A DNA stretch of 64,000 nucleotides from positions 7,626,001 through 7,690,000 of the forward strand of contig NZ_CP050975.2 of NCBI RefSeq assembly GCF_012273515.2, given 5' to 3'. Below are positions 3,447 through 31,120 of this stretch, piece by piece. Every line of letters begins with the position of its first letter. Position 1 is the first letter of the stretch. The notes under the pieces are model-generated. The model had not been told where the DNA came from and did no database searches. It was given only the letters and a program-made list of their open reading frames with translations. The position numbers were made by a program, and so were the translations under genes. This stretch comes from Streptomyces sp. RPA4-2 (GTDB taxonomy: Bacteria > Actinomycetota > Actinomycetes > Streptomycetales > Streptomycetaceae).

Positions 3447-5840
3447 GTGAGACGAATTCCCCGTCAGGCGGCCGCAGCCGGAGCACTGGTGGCCACCGCC
3501 GCGTTGCTGGCCGTCGGCATACAGACGGTTCCGGCGGTCGCCAAGCCCGCCGCCCCCCACCCCAGTCCGTTGCGCAGCGGAGGGCTGGAGGCCAAGCTCA
3601 GCCCGGCCCAGCACGCGGCCCTGCTGAAGAGCGCGGCGCAGAGGACGACGGCGACCGCCGGCACCCTCGGCCTCGGGGCCAAGGAGAAGCTGGTCGTCAG
3701 GGACGTCGTCAAGGACCAGGACGGCACGCTGCACACCCGCTACGAGCGCACCTACGCCGGTCTGCCGGTGCTGGGCGGCGACGTGGTCGTGCACACCCCG
3801 CCGGCCTCGCTGGCCGCCGGCACGGTGAGCAGCACCTTCAACAACAAGCGCACCATCAAGGTCGCCTCGACCACCGCGACCTTCAGCAAGTCGGCCGCCA
3901 CCGGCAAGGCCCTGAAGGCCGCGAGGTCACTGGTCGCCGAGAAGGCCACCACCGACAGCGCCCGCAAGGTGATCTGGGCCGGCAGCGGCACCCCGAAGCT
4001 TGCCTGGGAGACCGTGATCGGCGGCTTCCAGGACGACGGCACCCCGAACCAGCTGCACGTCATCACCGACGCCACCACCGGTAACGAGCTCTACCGCTAC
4101 CAGGGCATCGAGACCGGCATCGGCAACACGCAGTACAGCGGTCAGGTGACCCTGACGACGACGCAGTCGGGCTCCAACTACACGCTGACCGACGGCGCCC
4201 GCGGCGGCCACAAGACGTACAACCTGAACCGGGGCACGTCCGGCACCGGCACGCTCTTCTCGCAGACCAGCGACACCTGGGGCAACGGCACCACCTCCAA
4301 CGCCGCGACGGCCGGCGCCGACGCGCATTACGGCGCCGCGGAGACCTGGGACTTCTACAAGAACACGTTCAACCGCAGCGGCATCAAGAACAACGGCGTG
4401 GGCGCCTACTCCCGGGTCCACTACGGCAACGCGTACGTCAACGCGTTCTGGGACGACACCTGCTTCTGCATGACGTACGGCGACGGTTCCGGCAACGCGG
4501 ACCCGCTGACCGCGCTGGACGTGGCCGGCCACGAGATGAGCCACGGTGTCACCTCCAACACCGCGGGCCTCAACTACACCGGCGAGTCCGGCGGTCTGAA
4601 CGAGGCGACCTCCGACATCTTCGGCACCGGCGTCGAGTTCTACGCCAACAACAGCTCCGACCCCGGTGACTACCTCATCGGCGAGAAGATCGACATCAAC
4701 GGCGACGGCACTCCGCTGCGCTACATGGACAAGCCCAGCAAGGACGGGGGTTCCGCGGACAGTTGGTACTCCGGGGTCGGCAACCTGGACGTCCACTACT
4801 CCTCGGGTCCGGCGAACCACATGTTCTACCTGCTCTCGGAGGGCAGCGGCACCAAGGTGATCAACGGCGTCACCTACAACAGCACCACGTCCGACGGTGT
4901 CGCCGTCGCGGGCATCGGCCGGGCCGCCGCCCTGCAGATCTGGTACAAGGCGCTGACGACGTACATGACGTCCAGCACCAACTACGCCGCGGCCCGTACC
5001 GCCGCGCTCAACGCCGCCACCGCGCTCTACGGCGCCAACTCCACCCAGTACGCGGGGGTGGCGAACGCCTTCGCGGGCATCGCCGTCGGCAGCCACGTGA
5101 CCCCGCCGTCGAGCGGTGTGACCGTCACCAACCCGGGCAGCCAGTCCTCCACCGTCGGTACCGCGGTGAGTCTGCAGGTCTCCGCCAGCAGCACCAACAG
5201 CGGCTCGCTGAGCTACGCCGCGACGGGCCTGCCCACCGGCCTGTCGATCAACGGTTCCACCGGCGCGATCACCGGGACACCGACCACGGCCGGCACCTAC
5301 AGCACCACGGTCACCGTCACGGACAGCACCGGCGCGACCGGTACCGCGTCCTTCACCTGGACCGTCTCCTCGGGTGGCGGTGGCACCTGCACCTCGGCGC
5401 AGTTGCTCGGCAACCCGGGCTTCGAGTCGGGCAGCACCTCGTGGACCGCGTCGAGCGGCGTCATCACGACCGACACCGGTGAGGCGGCGCACGGCGGCTC
5501 CTACAAGGCCTGGCTCGACGGCTACGGCTCCACCCACACCGACACCGTCTCCCAGTCGGTGACGATCCCCGCCGGCTGCAAGGCCAGCTTCACCTTCTAC
5601 CTGCACATCGACACCGCGGAGACCACCACCAGCACCGCGTACGACAAGCTGACGGTCACCGCCGGATCGACCACCCTGGCCGCCTACTCCAACCTCAACA
5701 AGGCCACCGGGTACGCCCAGAAGACCTTCGACCTGTCCTCGTTCGCCGGCTCCACCGTCACCCTGAAGTTCAGCGGCGTGGAGGACTCCTCGCTCCAGAC
5801 CAGCTTCGTCGTCGACGACACCGCCGTCACGACCAGCTGA
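3447..5840 (+). CDS. Secreted M4 neutral metalloprotease with C-terminal add-on domains
   Basis: A 797-residue thermolysin-type zinc endopeptidase. GTG 3447 is chosen because AGGAG lies six bases upstream and a classic signal peptide follows (RRIPRQAAAAGALVATAALL, then AVA cleavage). A propeptide of roughly 30-220 contains the FTP-type region (TRYERTYAGLPVLGGDVVVH). The catalytic domain has HEMSH at 362-366, the third zinc ligand Glu in GLNEATSD at 386, and the proton-donor-region His at 450 (DVHYSSG). After about residue 555 come an Ig-like domain (GLPTGLSINGSTGAITGTP) and a jelly-roll-like module with NPGFESG. These are probably for substrate or wall binding. The enzyme degrades extracellular protein. 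It is monocistronic, followed by a strong terminator. Confidence 0.95.
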   Translation: MRRIPRQAAAAGALVATAALLAVGIQTVPAVAKPAAPHPSPLRSGGLEAKLSPAQHAALLKSAAQRTTATAGTLGLGAKEKLVVRDVVKDQDGTLHTRYERTYAGLPVLGGDVVVHTPPASLAAGTVSSTFNNKRTIKVASTTATFSKSAATGKALKAARSLVAEKATTDSARKVIWAGSGTPKLAWETVIGGFQDDGTPNQLHVITDATTGNELYRYQGIETGIGNTQYSGQVTLTTTQSGSNYTLTDGARGGHKTYNLNRGTSGTGTLFSQTSDTWGNGTTSNAATAGADAHYGAAETWDFYKNTFNRSGIKNNGVGAYSRVHYGNAYVNAFWDDTCFCMTYGDGSGNADPLTALDVAGHEMSHGVTSNTAGLNYTGESGGLNEATSDIFGTGVEFYANNSSDPGDYLIGEKIDINGDGTPLRYMDKPSKDGGSADSWYSGVGNLDVHYSSGPANHMFYLLSEGSGTKVINGVTYNSTTSDGVAVAGIGRAAALQIWYKALTTYMTSSTNYAAARTAALNAATALYGANSTQYAGVANAFAGIAVGSHVTPPSSGVTVTNPGSQSSTVGTAVSLQVSASSTNSGSLSYAATGLPTGLSINGSTGAITGTPTTAGTYSTTVTVTDSTGATGTASFTWTVSSGGGGTCTSAQLLGNPGFESGSTSWTASSGVITTDTGEAAHGGSYKAWLDGYGSTHTDTVSQSVTIPAGCKASFTFYLHIDTAETTTSTAYDKLTVTAGSTTLAAYSNLNKATGYAQKTFDLSSFAGSTVTLKFSGVEDSSLQTSFVVDDTAVTTS

Positions 5841-5874
5841 CCGGTACCGGCCGACCGAGCCGGTTCCAGCGCTG

Positions 5875-5904
5875 ACGTGGGCCACCCCTCCGGGTGGCCC
5901 ACGT
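5875..5904 (+). terminator. Terminator after the metalloprotease
   Basis: A perfect 13-bp stem (5875-5887 with 5892-5904) closes a CTCC loop. There is no U-run, as is common in Streptomyces. Confidence 0.8.
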
Positions 5905-5950
5905 TCGTGTTCGCACCCCGCGCTCGCCGGACCGGAGCCCGGGGAATTCT

Positions 5951-5979
5951 TTCCAAGGCAGCGGGCGGCGGGCTATAGT
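5951..5979 (+). promoter_or_regulatory. Promoter of the thiolase gene
   Basis: TTCCAA at 5951-5956 and TATAGT at 5974-5979 are separated by 17 bases. Transcription would start near 5985, inside the palindrome at 5984-6000. Confidence 0.55.
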
Positions 5980-5983
5980 CAAA

Positions 5984-6000
5984 AACTAGCGGTGCTAATT
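5984..6000. promoter_or_regulatory. Operator palindrome AACTAGC-GGT-GCTAATT
   Basis: The arms AACTAGC and GCTAATT match in six of seven positions around a GGT centre. The site covers the predicted transcription start of the thiolase, where a TetR-type repressor would block initiation. No TetR gene is next to it, so the regulator is encoded elsewhere. Confidence 0.6.
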
Positions 6001-6043
6001 AATGGTTGATCTCGTCGTTCCGGTGTCCGTCAGGAGTCCTGTC

Positions 6044-7231
6044 GTGCGTCCTGTCCACTTCGCGGCGGCCCGCCGCACCCCCATCGGCAAGCTGCGCGGC
6101 GCCCTGTCCGGGGTGCGCCCCGACGACCTCGCCGCGACCGTGATCCGCGGGCTGCTCGCCGACGTGCCCGCGCTCGACCCGGCCAGGATCGACGACGTCT
6201 ACTGGGGCGCCGCCAACCAGGCCGGTGAGGACAACCGCAACGTCGCCCGCATGGCCGTTCTCCTCGCCGGTCTGCCCGAGACCGTGCCCGGCGCGACCGT
6301 CAACCGGCTGTGCGCCTCGGGCCTGGAGGCCGTCACCACGGCGGCCCGCGCCATCGCCGCCGGCGAGGCCGACATCGTGCTCGCGGGCGGCTCCGAGTCG
6401 ATGAGCCGGGCCCCCTTCGTCCTGCCCCGGCCCGACGAGGCACTGCCGCACCGCATCGAGACCGTCGACACCCGGCTCGGCTGGAGACTGGTCAACCCGG
6501 CGATGAAGGAACTGCACGGACTCCTGTCGATGGGGGAGACCGCCGAGGAGGTCGCCGCCCGGTACGGGGTCTCCCGCGAGCGCCAGGACGCGTTCGCGCT
6601 GCGCAGCCACCAGCGTGCCGCGGACGCCCGCAAGAACGGCCACTTCGACCGCGAACTGCTGCCCGTCGAGCGCCCCGACGGGATGATCGTCGACACCGAC
6701 GAATGCGTACGCGAGGACACCTCGCTGGAGAAACTGTCCCGCCTCAAGCCGGTCTTCCGCGCGGGTGGCACGGTCACCGCGGGAAACGCGTCGCCCATGA
6801 ACGACGGAGCGGCCGGACTGCTCCTGGTCGGCGAAGAGGCGCTGAACGACCTGGGCCTGGAGTCGCTGGGCCGGTATGTCGCCGGCGCCTCGGCGGGAGT
6901 CGACCCGGACGTCATGGGCATCGGCCCCGTTCCCGCCACGCACAAGGCGCTGGCGCGGGTCGGCTGGAGCGTCGGCGACCTCGACGAGGCCGAGTTCAAC
7001 GAGGCGTTCGCGGCCCAGGCCCTCGCCTGCGTGGACCGACTCGGCATCGACCCGGAGCGGGTGAACCCCACTGGCGGCGCCATCGCGCTGGGCCACCCCC
7101 TCGGATGCTCCGGCGCCCGCATCCTCACCACCCTTCTGCACCGGATGCGCCGCAACGACGCCGGGCGCGGCCTGGCCACGATGTGCGTCGGGGTCGGACA
7201 GGGCAGCGCGGTCCTGGTCGAGCGCCCCTGA
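6044..7231 (+). CDS. Thiolase (acetyl-CoA C-acyltransferase family)
   Basis: A 395-residue enzyme of the usual thiolase length. Cys90 (NRLCASGLEA) is the acyl-accepting nucleophile. His351 in GGAIALGHPLGCSGAR and Cys381 in CVGVGQGS complete the catalytic set. GTG 6044 is preferred over 6002 because AGGAG is at 6031-6035. The family cleaves 3-ketoacyl-CoA, or condenses acetyl-CoA, in the cytoplasm. The ESMSRAPFVLPRP loop resembles 3-oxoadipyl-CoA and other degradative thiolases, but the substrate is not certain. It appears monocistronic and operator-controlled. A hairpin follows at 7257-7280. Confidence 0.9.
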   Translation: MRPVHFAAARRTPIGKLRGALSGVRPDDLAATVIRGLLADVPALDPARIDDVYWGAANQAGEDNRNVARMAVLLAGLPETVPGATVNRLCASGLEAVTTAARAIAAGEADIVLAGGSESMSRAPFVLPRPDEALPHRIETVDTRLGWRLVNPAMKELHGLLSMGETAEEVAARYGVSRERQDAFALRSHQRAADARKNGHFDRELLPVERPDGMIVDTDECVREDTSLEKLSRLKPVFRAGGTVTAGNASPMNDGAAGLLLVGEEALNDLGLESLGRYVAGASAGVDPDVMGIGPVPATHKALARVGWSVGDLDEAEFNEAFAAQALACVDRLGIDPERVNPTGGAIALGHPLGCSGARILTTLLHRMRRNDAGRGLATMCVGVGQGSAVLVERP

Positions 7232-7256
7232 CCCCGTCCCCGTGAGTGCCGAGCGA

Positions 7257-7280
7257 GCCCCCGGGACCGGAACCGGGGGC
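7257..7280 (+). terminator. Hairpin after the thiolase
   Basis: GCCCCCGG at 7257-7264 pairs with CCGGGGGC at 7273-7280 around an eight-base loop. This is a probable terminator. Confidence 0.5.
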
Positions 7281-7358
7281 GACCGGCCCCGCGCGGGGAT
7301 CACCTGACGGGACGCTCCTTACGCGGACGAGATGCGTGGGCATAGCATCGGTCCCCGC

Positions 7359-8132
7359 ATGAACACGATGACGCTCTGGCACATATCCGGCTGGGAATTC
7401 GCCGCCCTCGCCGCCGCGGCACTGCTCGTCGGCTTCTCGAAGACCGCCGTCAGCGGGGCCAACACGGTCAGCCTGGCGATCTTCGCCGCCGTACTGCCCG
7501 CCCGCGCCTCCACCGGCGTGCTGCTCCCCCTCCTCATCGTCGGGGACGTGCTGGCCGTACTGACCTACCGGCGCCACGCCCACTGGCCCACGCTGTGGCG
7601 GCTGTTCCCGGCGGTCGCGGCGGGTGTCGTCCTCGGCACGCTGTTCCTGGTGTGGGCCGACGACGGGATGGTACGGACCTCGATCGGCGCGATCCTGCTG
7701 CTGATGGCGGCGGTGACGCTCTGGCGCCGCCGGGCCGCCACCCAGGAGGAGGAACCCGACGCGGTCGCGACCCGGACGGGCCGGATCAAGGCACGCTCGT
7801 ACGGCGTCCTCGGCGGGTTCACCACGATGGTCGCCAACGCGGGCGGCCCGGTGATGTCGATGTACCTGCTGTCCGCCGGCTTCCGCAAACTCGGCTTCCT
7901 GGGCACCTCGGCCTTCTTCTTCCTGATCGTCAACACGTCCAAGGTGCCCTTCAGCGTGGGCCTCGGACTCATCGACGGACACTCGCTGCTCCTGGACGCG
8001 GCGCTCGCGATCTTCGTCGTACCGGGCGCGTTCCTCGGCAGATGGGCCGTGCACCGCATCAACCAGCTGCTCTTCGAACGGCTGGTGATCGCCGCGACGG
8101 TGGTGGGCGGGGTGCAGCTGCTGCTGCGCTGA
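7359..8132 (+). CDS. TauE/SafE family membrane exporter
   Basis: A 257-residue polytopic membrane protein with about seven to eight hydrophobic segments. It carries the TauE/SafE signatures GFSKTAVSGANT near the N-terminus and GGFTTMVANAGGPVMSMYLL in the second half, the inverted-repeat halves of the family. Members export sulfite, sulfoacetate or other small anions, or in some cases take up such compounds. The substrate cannot be fixed here. ATG 7359 is chosen over 7332 because the hydrophobic region begins soon after it and a TAGCAT hexamer (7343-7348) sits ten bases upstream, suggesting a leaderless or near-leaderless start. It runs close to cobK, whose own -10 lies just past this stop. 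Confidence 0.85.
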   Translation: MNTMTLWHISGWEFAALAAAALLVGFSKTAVSGANTVSLAIFAAVLPARASTGVLLPLLIVGDVLAVLTYRRHAHWPTLWRLFPAVAAGVVLGTLFLVWADDGMVRTSIGAILLLMAAVTLWRRRAATQEEEPDAVATRTGRIKARSYGVLGGFTTMVANAGGPVMSMYLLSAGFRKLGFLGTSAFFFLIVNTSKVPFSVGLGLIDGHSLLLDAALAIFVVPGAFLGRWAVHRINQLLFERLVIAATVVGGVQLLLR

Positions 8133-13010: not shown

Positions 13011-13441
13011 CGACTGCGCCGCCGTGCTGTGCGAGGGCTCCCAAGTGCTGCGCCCCGCCGGAACACCACCGGCCGCGCGCCCGTGGAACCGCGGCATGGG
13101 AGGGTGTCGTGGGTGGTGGTGTGCGCCGGGGCGACACTCCCGGGAGGTTCCCGCCCGTGAGCGGCTCAAGGTGCCTGAGGATCTCTCGCCGGGTAGAGAT
13201 CGTATCCGGGCCACGGGTTGGGAGTCGCGGATCAGAATGATGGTGGGATGCCACAGGGCGCGAGCCCTGCGAGCGAGGGCGTCGGCCTGCCGGAGGGCGG
13301 CGGCGGTGCTCTCCTGGTCCCCGCTCATTCCGCTGGACCGGACGCTCGGTCGGCCCTTCTCGGACACCTCGCCTCGGCCGACGGACCTGGCACGGACGGC
13401 TGACCCGGCACGCTCGTCGCACCCGCGTCCCGGGAGAGATA

Positions 13442-13562
13442 CCGGCTGCCCCGTGGCGCCCGCGGACCTGCTCCCCGTGGGGCGCGCGGTCCCGCTCCCC
13501 GTGGCGCCCGCGGCTCTGCTCCGCGTATCCGGCGTGCCCCCGCTCCCCGTATCGCGTGCCGG
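13442..13562. repeat. Degenerate 24-bp tandem repeat, five copies
   Basis: The core CCCCGTGG appears at 13449, 13473 and 13497, then as CCGCGTAT at 13521 and CCCCGTAT at 13545. The 24-base spacing is exact. On the minus strand it would encode a repeated eight-residue unit, but there is no start signal, so it is treated as a DNA repeat. Confidence 0.6.
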
Positions 13563-13644: not shown

Positions 13645-14865
13645 ATGATCACACCCCCGCGCGCGGTGCGCGACCGCATCCTCTCCCTGTCGCCCACGGA
13701 ACTGCCCGCCTACGTATACGACTTGGCGGCACTGCGCGCCCACGCCGCGTCCGTCAGAGCCGCCCTGCCCGATCGCGTCGAGCTGTACTACGCGGTCCAG
13801 GCCAACGGGGAACCGGAGGTCCTGGCCGAGCTCGGCCCGTACGTCGACGGCTACAAGGTGTCCTCCGGCATCGAACTGGCCCACATGGCCGAGGCCGTCG
13901 TGGACCGTCCGCGGGTCTTCGGCGGCACGGAGAAGACCCCGACGGAGCTGGCGGACGCGCTGGAGCGGGGCGTGACACGCTTCCAGGTCGAGAGCGAGTA
14001 CGAGCTGTACATGCTGGCGGGGCTGGCCCAGCGGCACGCTCCGGACCGCCGGGTGGCGGTGCTGCCGCGGTTCGACCTCCCGGTGCCCGACGGTCTTCTC
14101 ACGGCGGACGGCGGCGGGTCCGCCACCGCCTCCGGCCTCGATCCGGCGCGGGCCGACACGATCGTCGGCCTGCTCACCGACGGCAGCTATCCGAACCTCG
14201 AACTGCGAGGCGTCCACGCCCACTTGGCCAACGGGGTGCACGCCGAGGAACACCTGGCGCTGGCCGAGTCCGTCGTCGCCTGGACCCTGGAACTGGCCGC
14301 CCGGAACGGTCTTCGGCTCACCGAGGTGGACATCGGGGGCGGTATGGCGGTGGACTACGACCGCCCCGAGCGCCGCTTCGACTGGCACGCGTACGGCGAG
14401 GGCCTCGCCCGGCTCGTCACGGCCCACCCGGGACTGACGCTGCGGATCGAGCCCGGCCGCGCGCTGACCGCGTACTGCGGCTGGTACGCGAGCGAGGTGC
14501 TGGACGTCGAGCACGGCTCCAGCGAGGACTTCGCCGTCATCCGTGGCGGCGCCGTCCACCTGCGCACCCCCGTGACCGGGCGGCACGACCAGCCCTGGTC
14601 CGTTCTCGAAGTGGAGCCGTGGCCGTATTCCTGGCCGCGTCCCGTGGTGCGGAGGGAGCGTGCCACCCTCACCGGCCAGCTGAGCACGCCGAAGGACGTC
14701 CTGGTCCGTGACGTCCGGGCCCAGGGCCTGCGGGCCGGTGACCGCGTGGTGTTCTCCCTCGCGGGCGCCTACACCTCGTCCGCCCCGCACCGGGCCCACA
14801 CGCGCTATCCGGAACCCGGCTTCCACTTCCTGGACGCGGACGCCGACGGCGACCGGTCCCGATGA
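13645..14865 (+). CDS. Fold-III PLP-decarboxylase homologue lacking catalytic Lys and Cys
   Basis: A 406-residue protein with the layout of ornithine/diaminopimelate-type decarboxylases: an N-terminal TIM barrel and a C-terminal beta domain. The pocket residues EPGR (RIEPGRALTAYCGW) and the late AGAY tyrosine are present. The PLP-binding lysine, normally in YAVKAN, is Gln52 here (YYAVQANGEP). The catalytic cysteine of the LCTPKD motif is Ser347 (GQLSTPKDVLVRD). Both codons read clearly (CAG at 13798, AGC at 14683). The protein is therefore unlikely to decarboxylate by the usual route. ATG 13645 has GGAG seven bases upstream. The stop overlaps an ATG (ATGA), and the next genes are a dioxygenase-like remnant and a maleylacetate reductase homologue. 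It is either a decaying gene or a pseudoenzyme. Confidence 0.8.
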   Translation: MITPPRAVRDRILSLSPTELPAYVYDLAALRAHAASVRAALPDRVELYYAVQANGEPEVLAELGPYVDGYKVSSGIELAHMAEAVVDRPRVFGGTEKTPTELADALERGVTRFQVESEYELYMLAGLAQRHAPDRRVAVLPRFDLPVPDGLLTADGGGSATASGLDPARADTIVGLLTDGSYPNLELRGVHAHLANGVHAEEHLALAESVVAWTLELAARNGLRLTEVDIGGGMAVDYDRPERRFDWHAYGEGLARLVTAHPGLTLRIEPGRALTAYCGWYASEVLDVEHGSSEDFAVIRGGAVHLRTPVTGRHDQPWSVLEVEPWPYSWPRPVVRRERATLTGQLSTPKDVLVRDVRAQGLRAGDRVVFSLAGAYTSSAPHRAHTRYPEPGFHFLDADADGDRSR

Positions 14866-14966
14866 CCGATGACCGTGCGACGGAACACCAGGAGTTGCCG
14901 TCGGGGGCATCGCGGCGCATCCTCGGACACGCCTGGCAGGATCGTGCGCCGGACCAGGAGAGTGGC

Positions 14967-15200
14967 ATGACCGTCGAACCGACCGACTTCACGACAGACC
15001 TCCCGACCGCCTTCATGAACGACTCCACGGCCGACTCCACGGCCGCCTTCACGGCCGGCGTCATCGACGCCGTGTCCGCCGTGGAGCAGGGCCTGGTCCA
15101 GGAGGTCGCCGAGACCGACGACCCCTCCCTGGCAGGGGAGTTCGGCTTCCCGGCCCCCCTCCGGCACGCCCGCTTCGACCTCGTACGGGAGCAGGCATGA
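14967..15200 (+). pseudogene. Probable internally deleted intradiol dioxygenase remnant
   Basis: A 77-residue frame from ATG 14967, with AGGAG six bases upstream, ending in ATGA overlap with the reductase gene. Residues about 28-37 (FTAGVIDAVS) resemble the N-terminal helix of hydroxyquinol/catechol 1,2-dioxygenases. The end (VEQGLVQEVAETDDPSLAGE, then APLRHARFDLV) resembles their last strands, but the roughly 200 residues holding the iron ligands are absent. An in-frame internal deletion would give this product. Maleylacetate reductase genes are commonly paired with such dioxygenases. The alternative is a genuine small protein, possibly starting at 14862. The similarity was judged by eye only. 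Confidence 0.45.
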
Positions 15201-16285
15201 GCGCCATGGACACCCCGCTCGACTTCTCGTACGAGACCCGGCCGGGCCGGGTCGTCTTCCGGCCCGGCGCCGCCGTGTCCGCGACCCCCGGCGAGGTCGC
15301 CCGGCTCGGTCTGCACCGGGTGCTGGTGGTCTGCGGCAGCCGGGGCGAGGTCACCGCCCGTGCGGTCGCCGACGCGCTGGGCGGCCAGTGCGCGGGGCTG
15401 CACGCCGAGGCCCGGATGCACGTACCCGCCGAGGTCGCCGCCCGAGCCGTCGAGGTGGCCCGCGAGATACGGGCCGACGGCTGCGTGGCGGTCGGCGGAG
15501 GCTCGGCGATCGGCCTCGGCAAGGCGATCGCGCTGCGTACCGGGCTGCCGCTGATCGCCGTGCCGTCCACCTACTCCGGCTCCGAGATGACCCCGGTGTG
15601 GGGTCTGACCGAGGACGGCGCCAAACGCACCGGACGCGACCTCGCCGTTCAGCCCCGAAGCGTCGTCTACGATCCCGAACTCACCCTCGGGCTCCCCGTT
15701 CCCCTCTCGGTGACCAGCGGCGTCAACGCCCTCGCGCACGCAGTCGAAGCCCTCTACGCGCCCGACGCCTCGCCCCTCGTCTCGCTCATGGCCGAGGAGG
15801 GGGTCCGGGCGATGACGGGCGCCCTGCCGGCCGTGGCCGCCGCCCCCGGCGACCTCGACGCGCGCAGCCGCGCCCTGTACGGCGCGTGGCTGTGCGGTGC
15901 CTGCCTCGGCGCCACCACCATGGGCCTGCACCACAAGCTGTGCCATGTCCTCGGCGGCACCTTCGGCCTCCCGCACGCCGAGACGCACACGGTGGTCCTG
16001 CCCTACGTCCTCGCCTACAACGCGTCCGCCGCGCCCCGGGCGATCGCCACGCTGTCCCGGGCGCTCGGCACGGACGACGTCCCGCGCGCCCTGCGGGAGC
16101 TCGCCAGGGGCCTGGGCGCGCCGAGCACCCTCGCCGAACTCGGCCTGGAGGAGGCCGACTTGGCGGTGGCCGCGGCGCAGGCCGCCGGCCAGGCGTACCC
16201 GAACCCCCGCGAGGTCACCGCGCACGGCGTGCTGGGCCTGCTGACAGCGGCGTACGAGGGCTGGGAGCCGCGCGTCGGCTCCTGA
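15197..16285 (+). CDS. Maleylacetate reductase family protein
   Basis: A 362-residue member of the iron-containing alcohol dehydrogenase superfamily. It shows the maleylacetate reductase signatures PSTYSGSEMTPVWGLTEDGAKRTG (about 117-140), SGVNALAHAVEALYAP and HHKLCHVLGGTFGLPHAETHTVVLPY. GGGSAIGLGKAIAL is the nucleotide-binding loop. The enzyme would reduce maleylacetate to 3-oxoadipate with NAD(P)H at the end of hydroxyquinol or chlorocatechol degradation. The reading frame is intact, and its start overlaps the preceding frame by four bases, so translation is coupled to the remnant. With the dioxygenase apparently destroyed, it may be left without a substrate or serve another pathway. Confidence 0.85.
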   Translation: MSAMDTPLDFSYETRPGRVVFRPGAAVSATPGEVARLGLHRVLVVCGSRGEVTARAVADALGGQCAGLHAEARMHVPAEVAARAVEVAREIRADGCVAVGGGSAIGLGKAIALRTGLPLIAVPSTYSGSEMTPVWGLTEDGAKRTGRDLAVQPRSVVYDPELTLGLPVPLSVTSGVNALAHAVEALYAPDASPLVSLMAEEGVRAMTGALPAVAAAPGDLDARSRALYGAWLCGACLGATTMGLHHKLCHVLGGTFGLPHAETHTVVLPYVLAYNASAAPRAIATLSRALGTDDVPRALRELARGLGAPSTLAELGLEEADLAVAAAQAAGQAYPNPREVTAHGVLGLLTAAYEGWEPRVGS

Positions 16286-16395
16286 GAGCCGGCCCGCAAC
16301 GACGCCGATCCACGGGCTTCGCGCTCCCTCGCGTGGGTCCCTGCGCCCCCTGCCTGGGACGTACGCGCGGGCCGGGCTATCCTGACGCCGAACCG

Positions 16396-16471
16396 GACAC
16401 GGGGTGCCCCGCACGTGGGCTGAGATCACACCCGTCGAACCTGAACCAGTTAGGACTGGCGGAGGGATGTC
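16396..16471 (+). ncRNA. TPP riboswitch (THI element)
   Basis: All conserved parts are present: GGGGTGCC, GGGCTGAGATCACACCCG, then GAACCTGAACCAGTTAGGACTGGCGGAGGGA. The outer helix GACA (16396-16399) pairs with TGTC (16468-16471). The purine-rich GGAGGGA inside the 3' part of the aptamer is also the ribosome site for the ATG at 16474. TPP binding should therefore hide it directly and stop translation. Confidence 0.97.
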
Positions 16472-16473
16472 TC

Positions 16474-17868
16474 ATGTCGTTGCCGTATGCCCGTGGTGAA
16501 GTGGCCGTCGGAGGCCCGCAGGGCGTCTTCGACGGGCGGATGCCCGAGGCCCCCGGGGATCTGCGCGTCGAGGCGCGCGGCATCGCCCCGGTGCCGGAGG
16601 ACCACCGCTACGGCGGCCCCGGCCGCCTCTTCACCGTGTGGTTCGCCCCCAACCTGACGATGACCGGCGTCTTCACCGGTACCGTCGGCGTCGCGCTCGG
16701 CCTGGACTTCGCCACCGCGCTGACCGCCGTCGTGCTGGGCACCCTGCTGGGCGCGGTGCCGACGGCGTACCTCGGCACCTGGGGCAGCCAGACCGGCGCC
16801 GGACAGCTGCCGCTCGCCCGGCTCGCGTTCGGACGGGCCGTGCTGGTGCCGGGTGCGCTGCAGTGGCTGTCGTCGATCGCCTGGGACGCGCTGATCGGCC
16901 TGTTCGGCGGGGACGCGCTGGCGCAGTTGTGCGGCTGGCCGTTCTGGCTGGGTGTGCTGGTCATGATGGGCGCGCAGGGAGCGCTCGGCGTCCTCGGGTA
17001 CGAGGTGATCCACCGGCTCCAGACCGTGATGACGTTCGCCCTCGCCGCCGCCTTCGCCGCGCTGACGGTGAAGCTCCTGAACGGCGACCACCCCGCCGCC
17101 ACCGCCTCCGCGCACGGCGCCGACCGGGCCGGGGCCTTCGTCCTGACCTGCACCATCGCCCTCAGCCTGGCGCTGTCCTGGGCCCCCTACGCCAGCGACT
17201 TCAGCCGCTATCTGCCGCGTACGGCGTCCCGACCGCGGATGTTCTGGTGCACGCTCGCCGGTGTCAGCGTGTCCTTCGTGGCCGTCCAGGCGCTCGGCCT
17301 GTGGGGCGCCTCCGTCTTCACCGACCAGACCGCCCGCGGCGTCGACACCCTGCTCGGCGGCGGTGTCCTCGGCGCCTTCGGGCTGCTCGCCGTGGCCCTG
17401 GCCGCCCTGAGCAGCAACGCCATGAACGACTACAGCGGCTCACTCGCCCTGCAGACCATGGGCGTACGCCTGCCGCGTCCGGCCGCCGCCGCGCTGGCGG
17501 CCGTACTCGGCTTTCCGCTCGTGCTGTGGATGCACGCCGCCGACACCACGACCCGGTTCCAGAACGTGCTGCTGCTCGTCGGCTACTGGATCCCCGGGTT
17601 CGTCGCGATCGTCGCCGTCGACTGGCTCGTCCGGGCCAGGGCGCGCGCCGGCGCGCCGGTGGATCTGTCCGCCGAGAGCGCCCGCCCGCAGCCGTGGTGG
17701 CCCGCGCTGGTGGCGTTCGTCGGCGCCTTCGCCGCGGCGGTGCCGTTCATGAGCACCAGCCTGTACGTCGGTCCGGTCGCCCGGGCCCTGCACGGTGCGG
17801 ATCTCGCCTACGGGGTGGCGTTCCTCGCGGCCCTCGTGGTGTACGCGCCGCTGCGGCTGCGCCGCTGA
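16474..17868 (+). CDS. NCS1-family permease, probable HMP/thiamine-precursor transporter
   Basis: A 464-residue cytosine/purine/thiamine permease with about 12 membrane segments. Family stretches include [19 protein letters not shown] near the start, [38 protein letters not shown] and [17 protein letters not shown]. It lies five bases behind a TPP riboswitch and upstream of thiD, so the substrate is most likely hydroxymethylpyrimidine or a related thiamine precursor, imported with a cation. It corresponds in role to CytX of other bacteria. The start ATG 16474 is fixed by the riboswitch-embedded GGAGGGA. thiD follows after about 90 bases and is probably co-transcribed. Confidence 0.9.
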
Positions 17869-27000: not shown

Positions 27001-27483
27001 ATGATCCAGAAGCATCCACGCATCGTGGACCTGAGCGAGACGGAACCCAACCGCAGGCGCGGAGGCGACATCCGGGCCATGCTCACCCCCGCCACCGCGG
27101 GTTCCACCAGCGGGTTCATGGGCCTGGCCATCATCCAGCCCGGCGAGCGCATCGGCGAGCACTACCACCCGTACTCCGAGGAGTTCGTGTACGTCGTCAC
27201 CGGCGCGCTCGAGGTGGACCTGGACGGCGAGGCGCACGCGCTCCGGCCGGACCAGGGGCTCCTGATCCCGATCAACATGCGCCACCGCTTCCGCAACGTC
27301 GGTGACACGGAGGCCCGCATGGTCTTCCACCTGGGCCCGCTCGCCCCCCGGCCGAGCCTCGGTCACGTCGACACGGAGGTGACCGACGGACACGGGCCCG
27401 CCCCCGAGTTCGTCGCCGCCGGGACGGACCTGTCCGCGCCTGACCACGGACGGCCGTCCGAGCGAAGTGGGGCCATAAAGTGA
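27001..27483 (+). CDS. whiE-ORFII: Spore-pigment cupin protein (whiE-ORFII)
   Basis: A 160-residue single cupin. The metal-binding first motif is [21 protein letters not shown], with two His and a Glu. The second motif is [16 protein letters not shown]. The same protein occurs at this place in whiE-type loci. It may act as a cyclase or oxygenase on the polyketide chain or stabilise the complex. GGAGGT precedes ATG 27001. Its stop overlaps the ketosynthase start (GTGA), so translation is coupled. Confidence 0.92.
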
Positions 27484-28748
27484 CCCGGCGGGTGGCCGTC
27501 ACCGGCATCGGTGTGGTCGCTCCGGGCGGCACCGGAGCGACGGCGTTCTGGGACCTCCTCGCCAACGGCCGTACCGCGACCCGCGGCATCACGCTGTTCG
27601 ATCCGGTGGGCCTGCGCTCGCGCATAGCCGCCGAATGCGACTTCGACCCCCTCGCGCACGGTCTCGACCCGGAGCTGAGTCAGCACACGGACCGGTACAT
27701 CCAGTTCGCCGCGGTCGCGGCCAACGAGGCCGTACGCGACTCGGGACTCGACACCGCCAGGGAGGACCCCTGGCGGGTCGGTGTCTCGCTCGGCAGCGCC
27801 GTCGGCGGTACCACCCGCCTGGAACACGACTACGTCAAGGTCAGTGAGGGCGGTCGACGGTGGGACGTGGACCACCGCGCCGCCGACCCGCAACTGCACC
27901 TGGCGTTCTCACCCAGCACGCTCGCCTCGGTGGTCGCCGAACAGTTCGGCGCGCAGGGTCCGGTACAGACCGTCTCCACGGGCTGCACCTCCGGACTCGA
28001 CGCGGTCGGCTACGCCTTCCACACGATCGAGGAGGGCCGGGCCGACGTCTGCATCGCCGGGGCGTCCGACTCTCCCATATCCCCGATCACCATGGCCTGC
28101 TTCGACGCCATCAAGGCGACGTCGCCCGACAACGACGACCCGGAACACGCCTCCCGGCCCTTCGATGCCAACCGCAACGGCTTCGTCATGGGCGAGGGCG
28201 CGGCGGTACTCGTCCTCGAGGAGTACGAGCACGCCCGGGCCCGCGGTGCGCACATCTACTGCGAGATCGGCGGCTACGCCACCTACGGCAACGCCTACCA
28301 CATGACCGGTCTGACCAGTGAGGGCCGTGAGATGGCCCGGGCGATCGACACCACGCTCGACCAGGCGCGACTCGATCCGACACTGATCGACTACGTCAAC
28401 GCGCACGGCTCGGGCACCCGGCAGAACGACCGCCACGAGACCGCCGCGGTCAAGCGGTCGCTGGGCGCACACGCGTACAAGACACCCATGAGCTCCATCA
28501 AATCCATGGTGGGGCACTCGCTGGGCGCGATCGGCGCGATCGAGGTCGTCGCCTGCGTCCTCGCCCTGAAGCACCAGGTCGTGCCGCCCACCGCGAACTA
28601 CGAAACCCCCGACCCCGAGTGCGACCTGGACTACGTTCCGCGCACCGCACGCCCCCGGAAGCTCCGCAACGTGCTCTCCGTGGGCAGCGGATTCGGCGGT
28701 TTCCAGTCCGCGGTGCTCCTGACCGGGCCGGGTGGGAGGAACCCATGA
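27480..28748 (+). CDS. whiE-ORFIII: Type II PKS ketosynthase alpha (whiE-ORFIII)
   Basis: A 422-residue KS-alpha. Cys169 in [16 protein letters not shown] is the condensing nucleophile. The catalytic His residues are in [13 protein letters not shown] and [18 protein letters not shown]. It elongates the poly-beta-keto chain with malonyl units on the ACP, together with the chain length factor. The start is GTG 27480, overlapping the cupin stop. It ends in an ATGA overlap with the chain length factor gene, the usual translational coupling for this heterodimer. Confidence 0.96.
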
Positions 28749-30001
28749 CCAGTCAGCGCACTGAGCGCCCCCGGCGCGCGGCCATCACCGGGATCGGTGT
28801 GATCGCGCCCAACGGATTGCGAGCCGACGCCTACTGGAAGTCCATCAGTGAGGGGCTCGGCGTTCTGGGCCGGATCACCCGCGAGGGATGCGAGCACCTG
28901 CCGCTCCGCGTCGCCGGCGAGGTCCGCTCCTTCGACGCCGCGTCCCTCATCGAGGAGCGCTTCCTCGTCCAGACCGACCGCTTCAGTCACTTCGCCATGG
29001 CCGCGACCGTCCTCGCCCTGGACGACGCCGGCCTCGGCCACGGGGAGCCCGCGGAGCCGTACAACATCGGCGTGGTCACCGCGGCCGGCTCCGGAGGCGG
29101 GGAGTTCGGGCAGCGGGAACTCCAGAAACTGTGGGGCCAGGGATCCCGGTACGTCGGCCCGTACCAGTCCATCGCCTGGTTCTACGCCGCCAGCACCGGC
29201 CAGATCTCCATCCGGGGCGGCTTCAAGGGGCCGTGCGGAGTGGTCGCCAGCGACGAGGCCGGCGGCCTGGACGCCATCGCGCACGCCGCCCGCGGCGTAC
29301 GGCGCGGCACCGGATCGGTCCTCGCCGGGTCCGCCGAGGCGCCCCTCGCCCCGTACTCGATGGTCTGCCAGCTCGGCTACCCCGAGATCAGCACCGTCGA
29401 GGACCCCGATCGCGCCTACCGGCCCTTCACCGAGGGGGCCTGCGGGTTCGCACCCGCGGAGGGCGGCGCGATGCTCGTCGTGGAGGAAGAGGCTCGCGCC
29501 CGCGACCGCGGTGCCGCGATCCGGGCCACCGTGGCCGGGCACGGCGCCACCTTCACGGGGGCCTCCCGCTGGGAGCAGTCCCGGGAGGGACTCGCCCAGG
29601 CCATCCGGGTCGCCCTCGACGAGGCGGGCTGCGCCCCGCAGGACATCGACGTCGTGTTCGCCGACGCCCTGGGCGTGCCCGAGGCGGACCGCGCCGAAGC
29701 CCTGGCCATCGCCGACGCCCTGGGGGCGCACGGCACCCGGGTGCCCGTCACGGCGCCCAAGACCGGGATCGGGCGGGCCTACTGCGCGGCACCCGTGCTG
29801 GACACCGCGGCCGCGGTGCTCGCCATGGAGAACGGGCTGGTGCCCCCCACCCCCAACGTGTTCGACATCTGCCACGACCTCGACCTGGTGATGTCCAGCG
29901 CTCGCCCCGCCGAGCTGAACACGGCCCTGATCCTCAGCAGGGGACTCATGGGATCCAACGCGGCGCTGGTCGTGCGCCGCGGCGGCGAATCCGCCCGATA
30001 G
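28745..30001 (+). CDS. whiE-ORFIV: Type II PKS chain length factor, KS-beta (whiE-ORFIV)
   Basis: A 418-residue KS-like partner of KS-alpha. The nucleophile position is Glu171 ([18 protein letters not shown]) in place of the Cys of KS-alpha. Most chain length factors have Gln there. The partner subunit sets the length of the chain; whiE systems are known for long (about C24) chains. ATG 28745 overlaps the KS-alpha stop, which also excludes the longer upstream frame. The ACP gene follows 24 bases later. Confidence 0.93.
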
Positions 30002-30025
30002 GACCGGGCGGGAAGGAGAACACAG

Positions 30026-30764
<739 letters not shown>

Positions 30765-30787
30765 TCACCGACCCAGGAAGGACCCCG

Positions 30788-31120
30788 ATGCATCACGCCC
30801 TGATCGTCGCCCGGATGGCGCCCGACTCGGCGCCGGCGATCGCCGACGTGTTCGCCGCCTCCGACCGCGGTGAACTGCCGCACCTGATCGGCGTCAACCG
30901 GCGCAGCCTCTTCCAGTTCGGTGATGTGTACATGCACCTCATCGAATCCGACAAGGACCCCGCGCCCGCCATCGCGAAGGTGGTCGGGCACCCGGAGTTC
31001 CGCAGCGTCAGCGAGGAACTGTCCGCGTACGTCAGTGCGTACGACCCGCAGACGTGGCGCAGCCCCAAGGACGCCATGGCCCGCTGCTTCTACCGCTGGG
31101 AGCGCGCCGCCGCCTCCTGA
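30788..31120 (+). CDS. whiE-ORFVII: TcmI-family polyketide cyclase (whiE-ORFVII)
   Basis: A 110-residue ferredoxin-like cyclase (MHHALIVARMAPDSAPAIAD through DVYMHLIESDKDPAPAIAKV to DAMARCFYRWE), typical of TcmI/WhiE-ORFVII. It closes later rings of the polyketide. GGAAGG sits six bases before ATG 30788. It is the last gene of the operon, followed by the strong hairpin at 31139. Confidence 0.92.
   Translation: MHHALIVARMAPDSAPAIADVFAASDRGELPHLIGVNRRSLFQFGDVYMHLIESDKDPAPAIAKVVGHPEFRSVSEELSAYVSAYDPQTWRSPKDAMARCFYRWERAAAS

Follow-up and report, generated by a model that had tools for sequence, protein, structure and literature searches.

A Streptomyces clade of SbnH-type decarboxylase homologues without the Schiff-base lysine and catalytic cysteine, with a new lysine at a conserved acidic site and a retained putative PLP cradle

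Introduction

To our knowledge, PLP enzymes of fold III are treated as defined by one lysine. In ODC this Schiff-base lysine is Lys69, while Asp88 and Glu94 are given as PLP-stabilising (PMC5518511). Among citryl-amino-acid decarboxylases, SbnH of S. aureus (structure 6knk) is the N-citryl-diaminopropionate decarboxylase of staphyloferrin B synthesis, and FigC, an N-citrylornithine decarboxylase, belongs to the same branch; a published description of these enzymes names R304 and K347 of SbnH as citrate carboxylate contacts (PMC7857480). Inactive relatives have also been described, and antizyme inhibitors (AZIs) are reported to retain the lysine and cysteine, bar a few cases, but to differ at five of sixteen PLP-binding residues (PMC3543441).

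Here we describe an SbnH-type homologue in which both the lysine and the cysteine are replaced. The gene lies in a stretch of 64,000 nucleotides from Streptomyces sp. RPA4-2 (contig NZ_CP050975.2, positions 7,626,001 to 7,690,000), hereafter the window, to which all coordinates refer unless another locus is named.

Results

The open reading frame at 13645-14865 on the plus strand encodes 406 amino acids plus a stop codon in an uninterrupted frame, and both Pfam domains score above their cut-offs (PF02784, Orn_Arg_deC_N, 3.6e-21; PF00278, Orn_DAP_Arg_deC, 4.1e-10). The closest solved relatives are 6knh/6kni (2.2e-58) and 6knk, followed by BtrK and diaminopimelate decarboxylases. Homology to 6knh covers residues 21-398 of 406 and thus both domains, placing the protein among the fold-III (alanine racemase fold) PLP decarboxylases, in the SbnH branch. 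When the protein was aligned with SbnH, the Schiff-base lysine fell at Gln52, within the motif YYAVQAN (48-54), and the cysteine of LCTPKD fell at Ser347, within GQLSTPKD, as a first-pass annotation made from the sequence had claimed; the EPGR (269-272) and the tyrosine of AGAY (motif at 373-376) that it reported as remaining are indeed there. Codon 52 (13798-13800, plus strand) reads CAG for Gln where relatives have AAG for Lys, and codon 347 (14683-14685, plus strand) reads AGC for Ser where relatives have TGC for Cys. A further active-site change, missed in that annotation, is found at codon 71 (13855-13857, plus strand), which reads AAG for Lys where relatives have GAG for Glu. Site 71 takes the position of ODC Asp88 by spacing, with the ODC intervals of 19 (Lys69-Asp88) and 6 (Asp88-Glu94) matching 52-71 and 71-77 here, a placement based on sequence alignment and published ODC numbering (PMC5518511). 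Its counterpart in solved relatives is Glu in SbnH and BtrK and Asp in the diaminopimelate decarboxylase 3n2b.

A homologue search found 1756 sequences. Among the best 120 listed, the nine closest (77-97% identity) are without Lys52 and with Ser347, and the other 111 (up to 68% identity) all have both Lys and Cys. Together with the query and two loci, L034 from S. diastatochromogenes and L035 from S. olivochromogenes, these nine database clusters make up a clade of 12. The clusters represent 156 member sequences, the S. mirabilis cluster alone contributing 116, and the database label on clade members, 'type III PLP-dependent enzyme', conceals the active-site loss. Every one of the 12 has an open frame, and of the features expected of the SbnH branch the Schiff-base lysine is missing throughout (Gln52 in the query; Lys in 0/12), as is the second-subunit catalytic cysteine (Ser347 in 12/12). 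Lys71 is likewise found in 12/12. Sites 71 and 347 are unchanged inside the clade, and site 52 (Gln in 8, Glu in 3, Arg in 1) is one of 7 of the 406 sites with at least four changes, so that the expectation of a clade conserving both Gln and Ser holds for Ser347 and fails for Gln52. Glu77 is kept in 11 of 12 members, the exception being P0004, which has Gly.

By contrast, the residue at site 71 is acidic in every control sequence covering it. Among the 111 Lys/Cys homologues it is Glu in 110 and Asp in 1, and 48 of 48 control loci show Lys, Glu and Cys at 52, 71 and 347. A third control set comprised 60 further loci with 37-85% identity to a Lys/Cys query; here Lys was found in 58/58 loci covering the site, Glu or Asp at site 71 in 58/58, and Cys in 59/60. 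The combination of Lys52 loss with Lys71 therefore separates the clade (12/12) from the homologues (0/111), the control loci (0/48) and the further loci covering both sites (0/58), control sets that overlap in source genomes. The one locus of the third set without Cys is L155, a distant SbnH-like locus that keeps Lys and Glu and shows Gly at the Cys position, which may be an alignment artefact. Across 392 sampled Streptomyces genomes, 134 gave a match at 1e-40, of which the control loci form a part, and identity above 67% was reached in the window's own genome alone; when the genus search was repeated around another centre, in what seem to be largely the same genomes, 0/392 gave a match at 1e-175. 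In a tree of 53 rows, rooted at the midpoint, the clade has a single origin (support 100/100) and branches from among the Lys/Cys rows; support is 89/84 at the fork where its exact sister group would be decided. Its stem is 0.39 changes per column long, and its mean depth from the parent node is 0.62 versus 0.22 in nine sister rows (about 2.9-fold). On these alignments, the protein cannot work as the usual decarboxylase of its family.

We then considered the residues expected to hold PLP, whose roles are taken from published accounts of FigC and ODC via alignment, motif and spacing (PMC7857480, PMC5518511). All lie on the plus strand and comprise Arg142 (14068-14070), by motif order the putative counterpart of FigC R151, which lies close to the PLP hydroxyl; His193 (14221-14223), the putative PLP-stacking histidine; Gly231-233 (14335-14343), the phosphate glycine loop; Glu269 and Arg272 of EPGR (14449-14460), assigned to the pyridine nitrogen and the phosphate, respectively; and Tyr376 of AGAY (14770-14772), ODC Tyr389 by spacing from the Cys. 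These eight cradle positions are kept 8/8 in 12/12 clade members. The 111 relatives share 172 invariant positions, of which all ten clade rows tested keep 111 and all ten lose 23; on that basis the eight cradle positions would all be kept by chance with a probability of 0.027, a modest result. Among the 60 further loci, cradle departures were seen in L174 (Val at the first glycine) and in a broken copy, L183 (two sites). Losses of family-invariant sites are concentrated in two stretches, 302-318, where 3 of 15 are kept in all of the same ten rows, and 374-388, where 3 of 14 are; SbnH citrate contacts fall in the stretch matching 302-318 (PMC7857480). At the sites matching SbnH R304 and K347, respectively, R307 is retained by 10/12 clade members and K350 is Lys in 9/12 and Arg in 3/12.

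The reading we prefer, at a little short of an even chance, is that the clade represents a protein which is maintained without decarboxylase function and continues to bind PLP or a similar ligand. The protein would fold as the usual barrel dimer, and it may still accept PLP, or else a ligand bearing a phosphate or carboxylate group (the counterparts of SbnH R304 and K347 are conserved in most members). Lys71 would possibly substitute for the lost positive charge. Alternatively, Lys71 could itself make the Schiff base, either with PLP or in a direct reaction with a keto acid, leaving an active enzyme with a changed reaction. Lys71 presumably sits where the adjacent barrel strand ends, and a moved lysine is attractive because a family-wide acidic residue became lysine in the same clade that lost Lys52. 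Fixation of Lys71 in 12/12 while site 52 changes at least four times, the ODC-like spacing of positions 52, 71 and 77 noted above, the kept PLP cradle, and the rewriting of the two stretches 302-318 and 374-388 at family-invariant sites, which a change of substrate would require, are all consistent with such a relocation. However, Cys347 is also lost, a charge swap explains Lys71 as well, 3/12 members combining Glu52 with Lys71, and P0004 has Gly for Glu77; we consider this alternative rather unlikely. Searches of open-licence PubMed Central turned up no paper describing the clade or a relocated lysine in fold III. The first-pass annotation had named another lysine and cysteine in the active site as grounds against its reading; Lys71 partly answers to the lysine, and no replacement cysteine was noticed.

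The intradiol dioxygenase gene next to the clade gene matches 6-chlorohydroxyquinol and hydroxyquinol 1,2-dioxygenases best, and the clade gene stands directly before the dioxygenase and maleylacetate reductase genes in three loci, namely the window, L035 and L034, whose contig ends inside the reductase gene. In the window, the hydroxyquinol 1,2-dioxygenase is a remnant of 77 amino acids (14967-15200, plus strand) whose frame also opens at 14862 (14862-15200), overlapping the stop of the decarboxylase homologue (ATGA). The gene is reduced in frame, with a 699-bp core missing relative to L034 between the near-identical 8-base copies GACGCCGT and GACGCGGT, and it is followed by a full-length maleylacetate reductase-type iron alcohol dehydrogenase gene (15197-16285, plus strand). 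Three other near-full-length dioxygenase genes are present in the window's genome. We suppose that the clade protein could be a non-decarboxylating binding or regulatory partner of these catabolic genes, probably co-transcribed with them; because the window dioxygenase is broken, the protein cannot owe its role in this genome to that gene copy. In the boldest form of the moved-lysine alternative, the Schiff-base lysine might have hopped from 52 to 71, presumably on the next barrel strand, and turned a siderophore decarboxylase into a new enzyme of an aromatic ring-cleavage operon, acting through PLP or a directly formed keto-acid imine (for example, with maleylacetate), a scenario that we regard as unlikely.

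Among 20 dioxygenase-reductase loci of other genomes, an intact SbnH-type gene was found in 0/20. One of them, L110, has a broken SbnH-type gene (5342-6033 of that locus) about 1.8 kb upstream of the dioxygenase-reductase pair, with a stop and a frameshift and with the Cys kept, which is up to 65% identical to the Lys/Cys group versus 51-55% to the clade; this other genome of the genus thus offers a second meeting of the two gene types. The dioxygenase is broken or nearly gone in 2 of the 20 (L101 and L102), and in L101 (about 7117-7984 of that locus) the sequence interrupting the broken gene resembles a transposase-type insertion by eye. No siderophore genes were found beside the clade gene in the window, L034 or L035. 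The three clade genomes searched (G000, G451 and G452) have five IucA/IucC hits each, and an sbn-type siderophore cluster was not found at the NIS loci viewed, which cover all five hits of G000 in three loci and, for G451 as for G452, a single locus with two of the five hits. Cooperation with a surviving sbn-type siderophore cluster was rejected, as these loci are without an SbnH-type or ATP-grasp partner like those at L036 and L037 (see Discussion).

Other features of the window were recorded alongside. A TPP riboswitch (16390-16484) precedes genes for an NCS1 (CytX-like) permease and ThiD, and the whole looks like a thiamine-precursor uptake unit; a thiamine link of the clade gene through these downstream genes was set aside because the riboswitch suggests a separate thiamine unit. 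About 300 bp upstream of the clade gene, a non-coding block of 185 bp (13164-13348) is 82% identical to L034 and L035 and may be a regulatory region, and a repeat occurs three times with 24-base spacing at 13449-13544, where the upstream part is without a strong L034/L035 match. Farther away, two ketosynthase-like, a carrier-protein-like and a cyclase-like gene (27480-31120) resemble by eye a type II polyketide cluster, perhaps for spore pigment.

To see how strongly the gene is constrained, dN/dS (NG86) was computed from three clade DNA sequences, a coarse test that gave 0.335 for window-L034, 0.332 for window-L035 and 0.204 for L034-L035. Neutral simulations matched for the number of differences (six parameter settings of 150 runs each, substitutions without indels) all gave at least 0.564, and 36 of the 900 were stop-free. 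By contrast, 35 Lys/Cys pairs at dS 0.30-0.42 had a mean of 0.215 (range 0.127-0.434), with 2/35 exceeding 0.335, and the neighbouring genes gave 0.253 (maleylacetate reductase), 0.152 (permease) and 0.126 (ThiD) between window and L035, making the SbnH-type gene the least constrained among those compared. Given that its dN/dS is high relative to both Lys/Cys pairs and neighbours and that the depth of the clade is about 2.9 times that of its sister rows, constraint on the clade gene is partly relaxed, looser than in most relatives.

Such relaxation raises the possibility of slow loss, in which the gene left a siderophore cluster, lost its function and drifts, with the frame still open as the time has been short. 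The long stem and faster evolution of the clade, the variability of site 52, a dN/dS above 33 of 35 Lys/Cys pairs and three neighbouring genes, the broken dioxygenase adjoining it in the window, and the failure to find an sbn-type cluster at the NIS loci viewed would all fit. However, a dN/dS of 0.33 lies under all 900 neutral simulations, GC3 is intact (0.916 versus a mean of 0.923 in 48 Lys/Cys loci) and frames are open in 12/12, whereas copies broken elsewhere carry a stop, are frameshifted or have parts missing while their motifs persist: L110 keeps the Cys despite its stop and frameshift, and L177 is split over two frames with Lys, Glu and Cys kept (possibly through sequencing error). The gene thus shows neither the absence of purifying selection nor the frame loss of a pseudogene, and we judge slow loss improbable. 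These comparisons indicate that the clade gene is not drifting freely and appears to be kept under selection. The dN/dS check proposed at first pass thus favours, at the sequence level, the maintained pseudoenzyme suggested there (one clade, frame kept, 0.33) and lends no support to early decay.

An inactive paralogue serving as binder or activator of a related, active decarboxylase, in the manner of antizyme inhibitor or prozyme, has reported precedents in AZI (PMC3543441) and in enzyme-activating dead paralogues (PMC3663545, PMC6221367). However, a Lys/Cys subfamily member was found in none of the three clade genomes searched, where relatives at 26-30% identity remain, and therefore there is no obvious active partner. 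The residue pattern is also the reverse of that reported for AZI, in which Lys and Cys are mostly kept and several PLP contacts lost, so that the antizyme-inhibitor precedent invoked at first pass fits poorly and this alternative is very improbable. Finally, each of the three changes (52, 71 and 347) is one base from the relatives' codon, as a sequencing or annotation artefact might produce, but the same loss recurs in nine further clusters, which hold 156 member sequences, as well as in the named genomes of L034 and L035, and this leaves that explanation practically no room.

Discussion

We propose that a derived clade of the SbnH family is no longer an ordinary PLP amino-acid decarboxylase and is probably maintained as a protein built around a cradle for PLP or a similar ligand. 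The clade offers a natural variant set, apparently selected, in which the lysine is gone, a new lysine stands beside its place and the cofactor cradle remains. If Lys71 carries an imine, a catalytic lysine can move within the fold; if it does not, the clade would be a bacterial pseudoenzyme with a wear pattern opposite to that of antizyme inhibitor.

Compared with SbnH, the glycine loop, the Glu and Arg of EPGR (ECGR in SbnH) and the AGAY tyrosine are common to both proteins, and SbnH R304 and K347 align with R307 and K350. By contrast, the clade protein is without the Lys and Cys, has Glu replaced by Lys at 71, carries G312 in place of SbnH W309 and is rewritten at 377-388, and its gene is without siderophore genes alongside in three loci. 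Two Lys/Cys loci with enough flank for context, L036 and L037, from NIS siderophore clusters of Streptomyces and Kitasatospora, encode members of the same subfamily 60% and 55% identical to the window protein; unlike the clade, they keep Lys52, Glu71 and Cys347, and they adjoin an ATP-grasp-like and two IucA/IucC-like genes, as judged from translations. For FigC, the PLP contacts E287, G237-239, R290, H198 and R151 have kept counterparts by motif and order, without alignment, whereas FigC has K63 and C354 (PMC7857480). The clade protein resembles antizyme inhibitor (AZIN) in being a presumably inactive relative of a fold-III decarboxylase; it differs in losing the Lys and Cys while keeping the tested cradle residues, the reverse of what is reported for antizyme inhibitors (PMC3543441).
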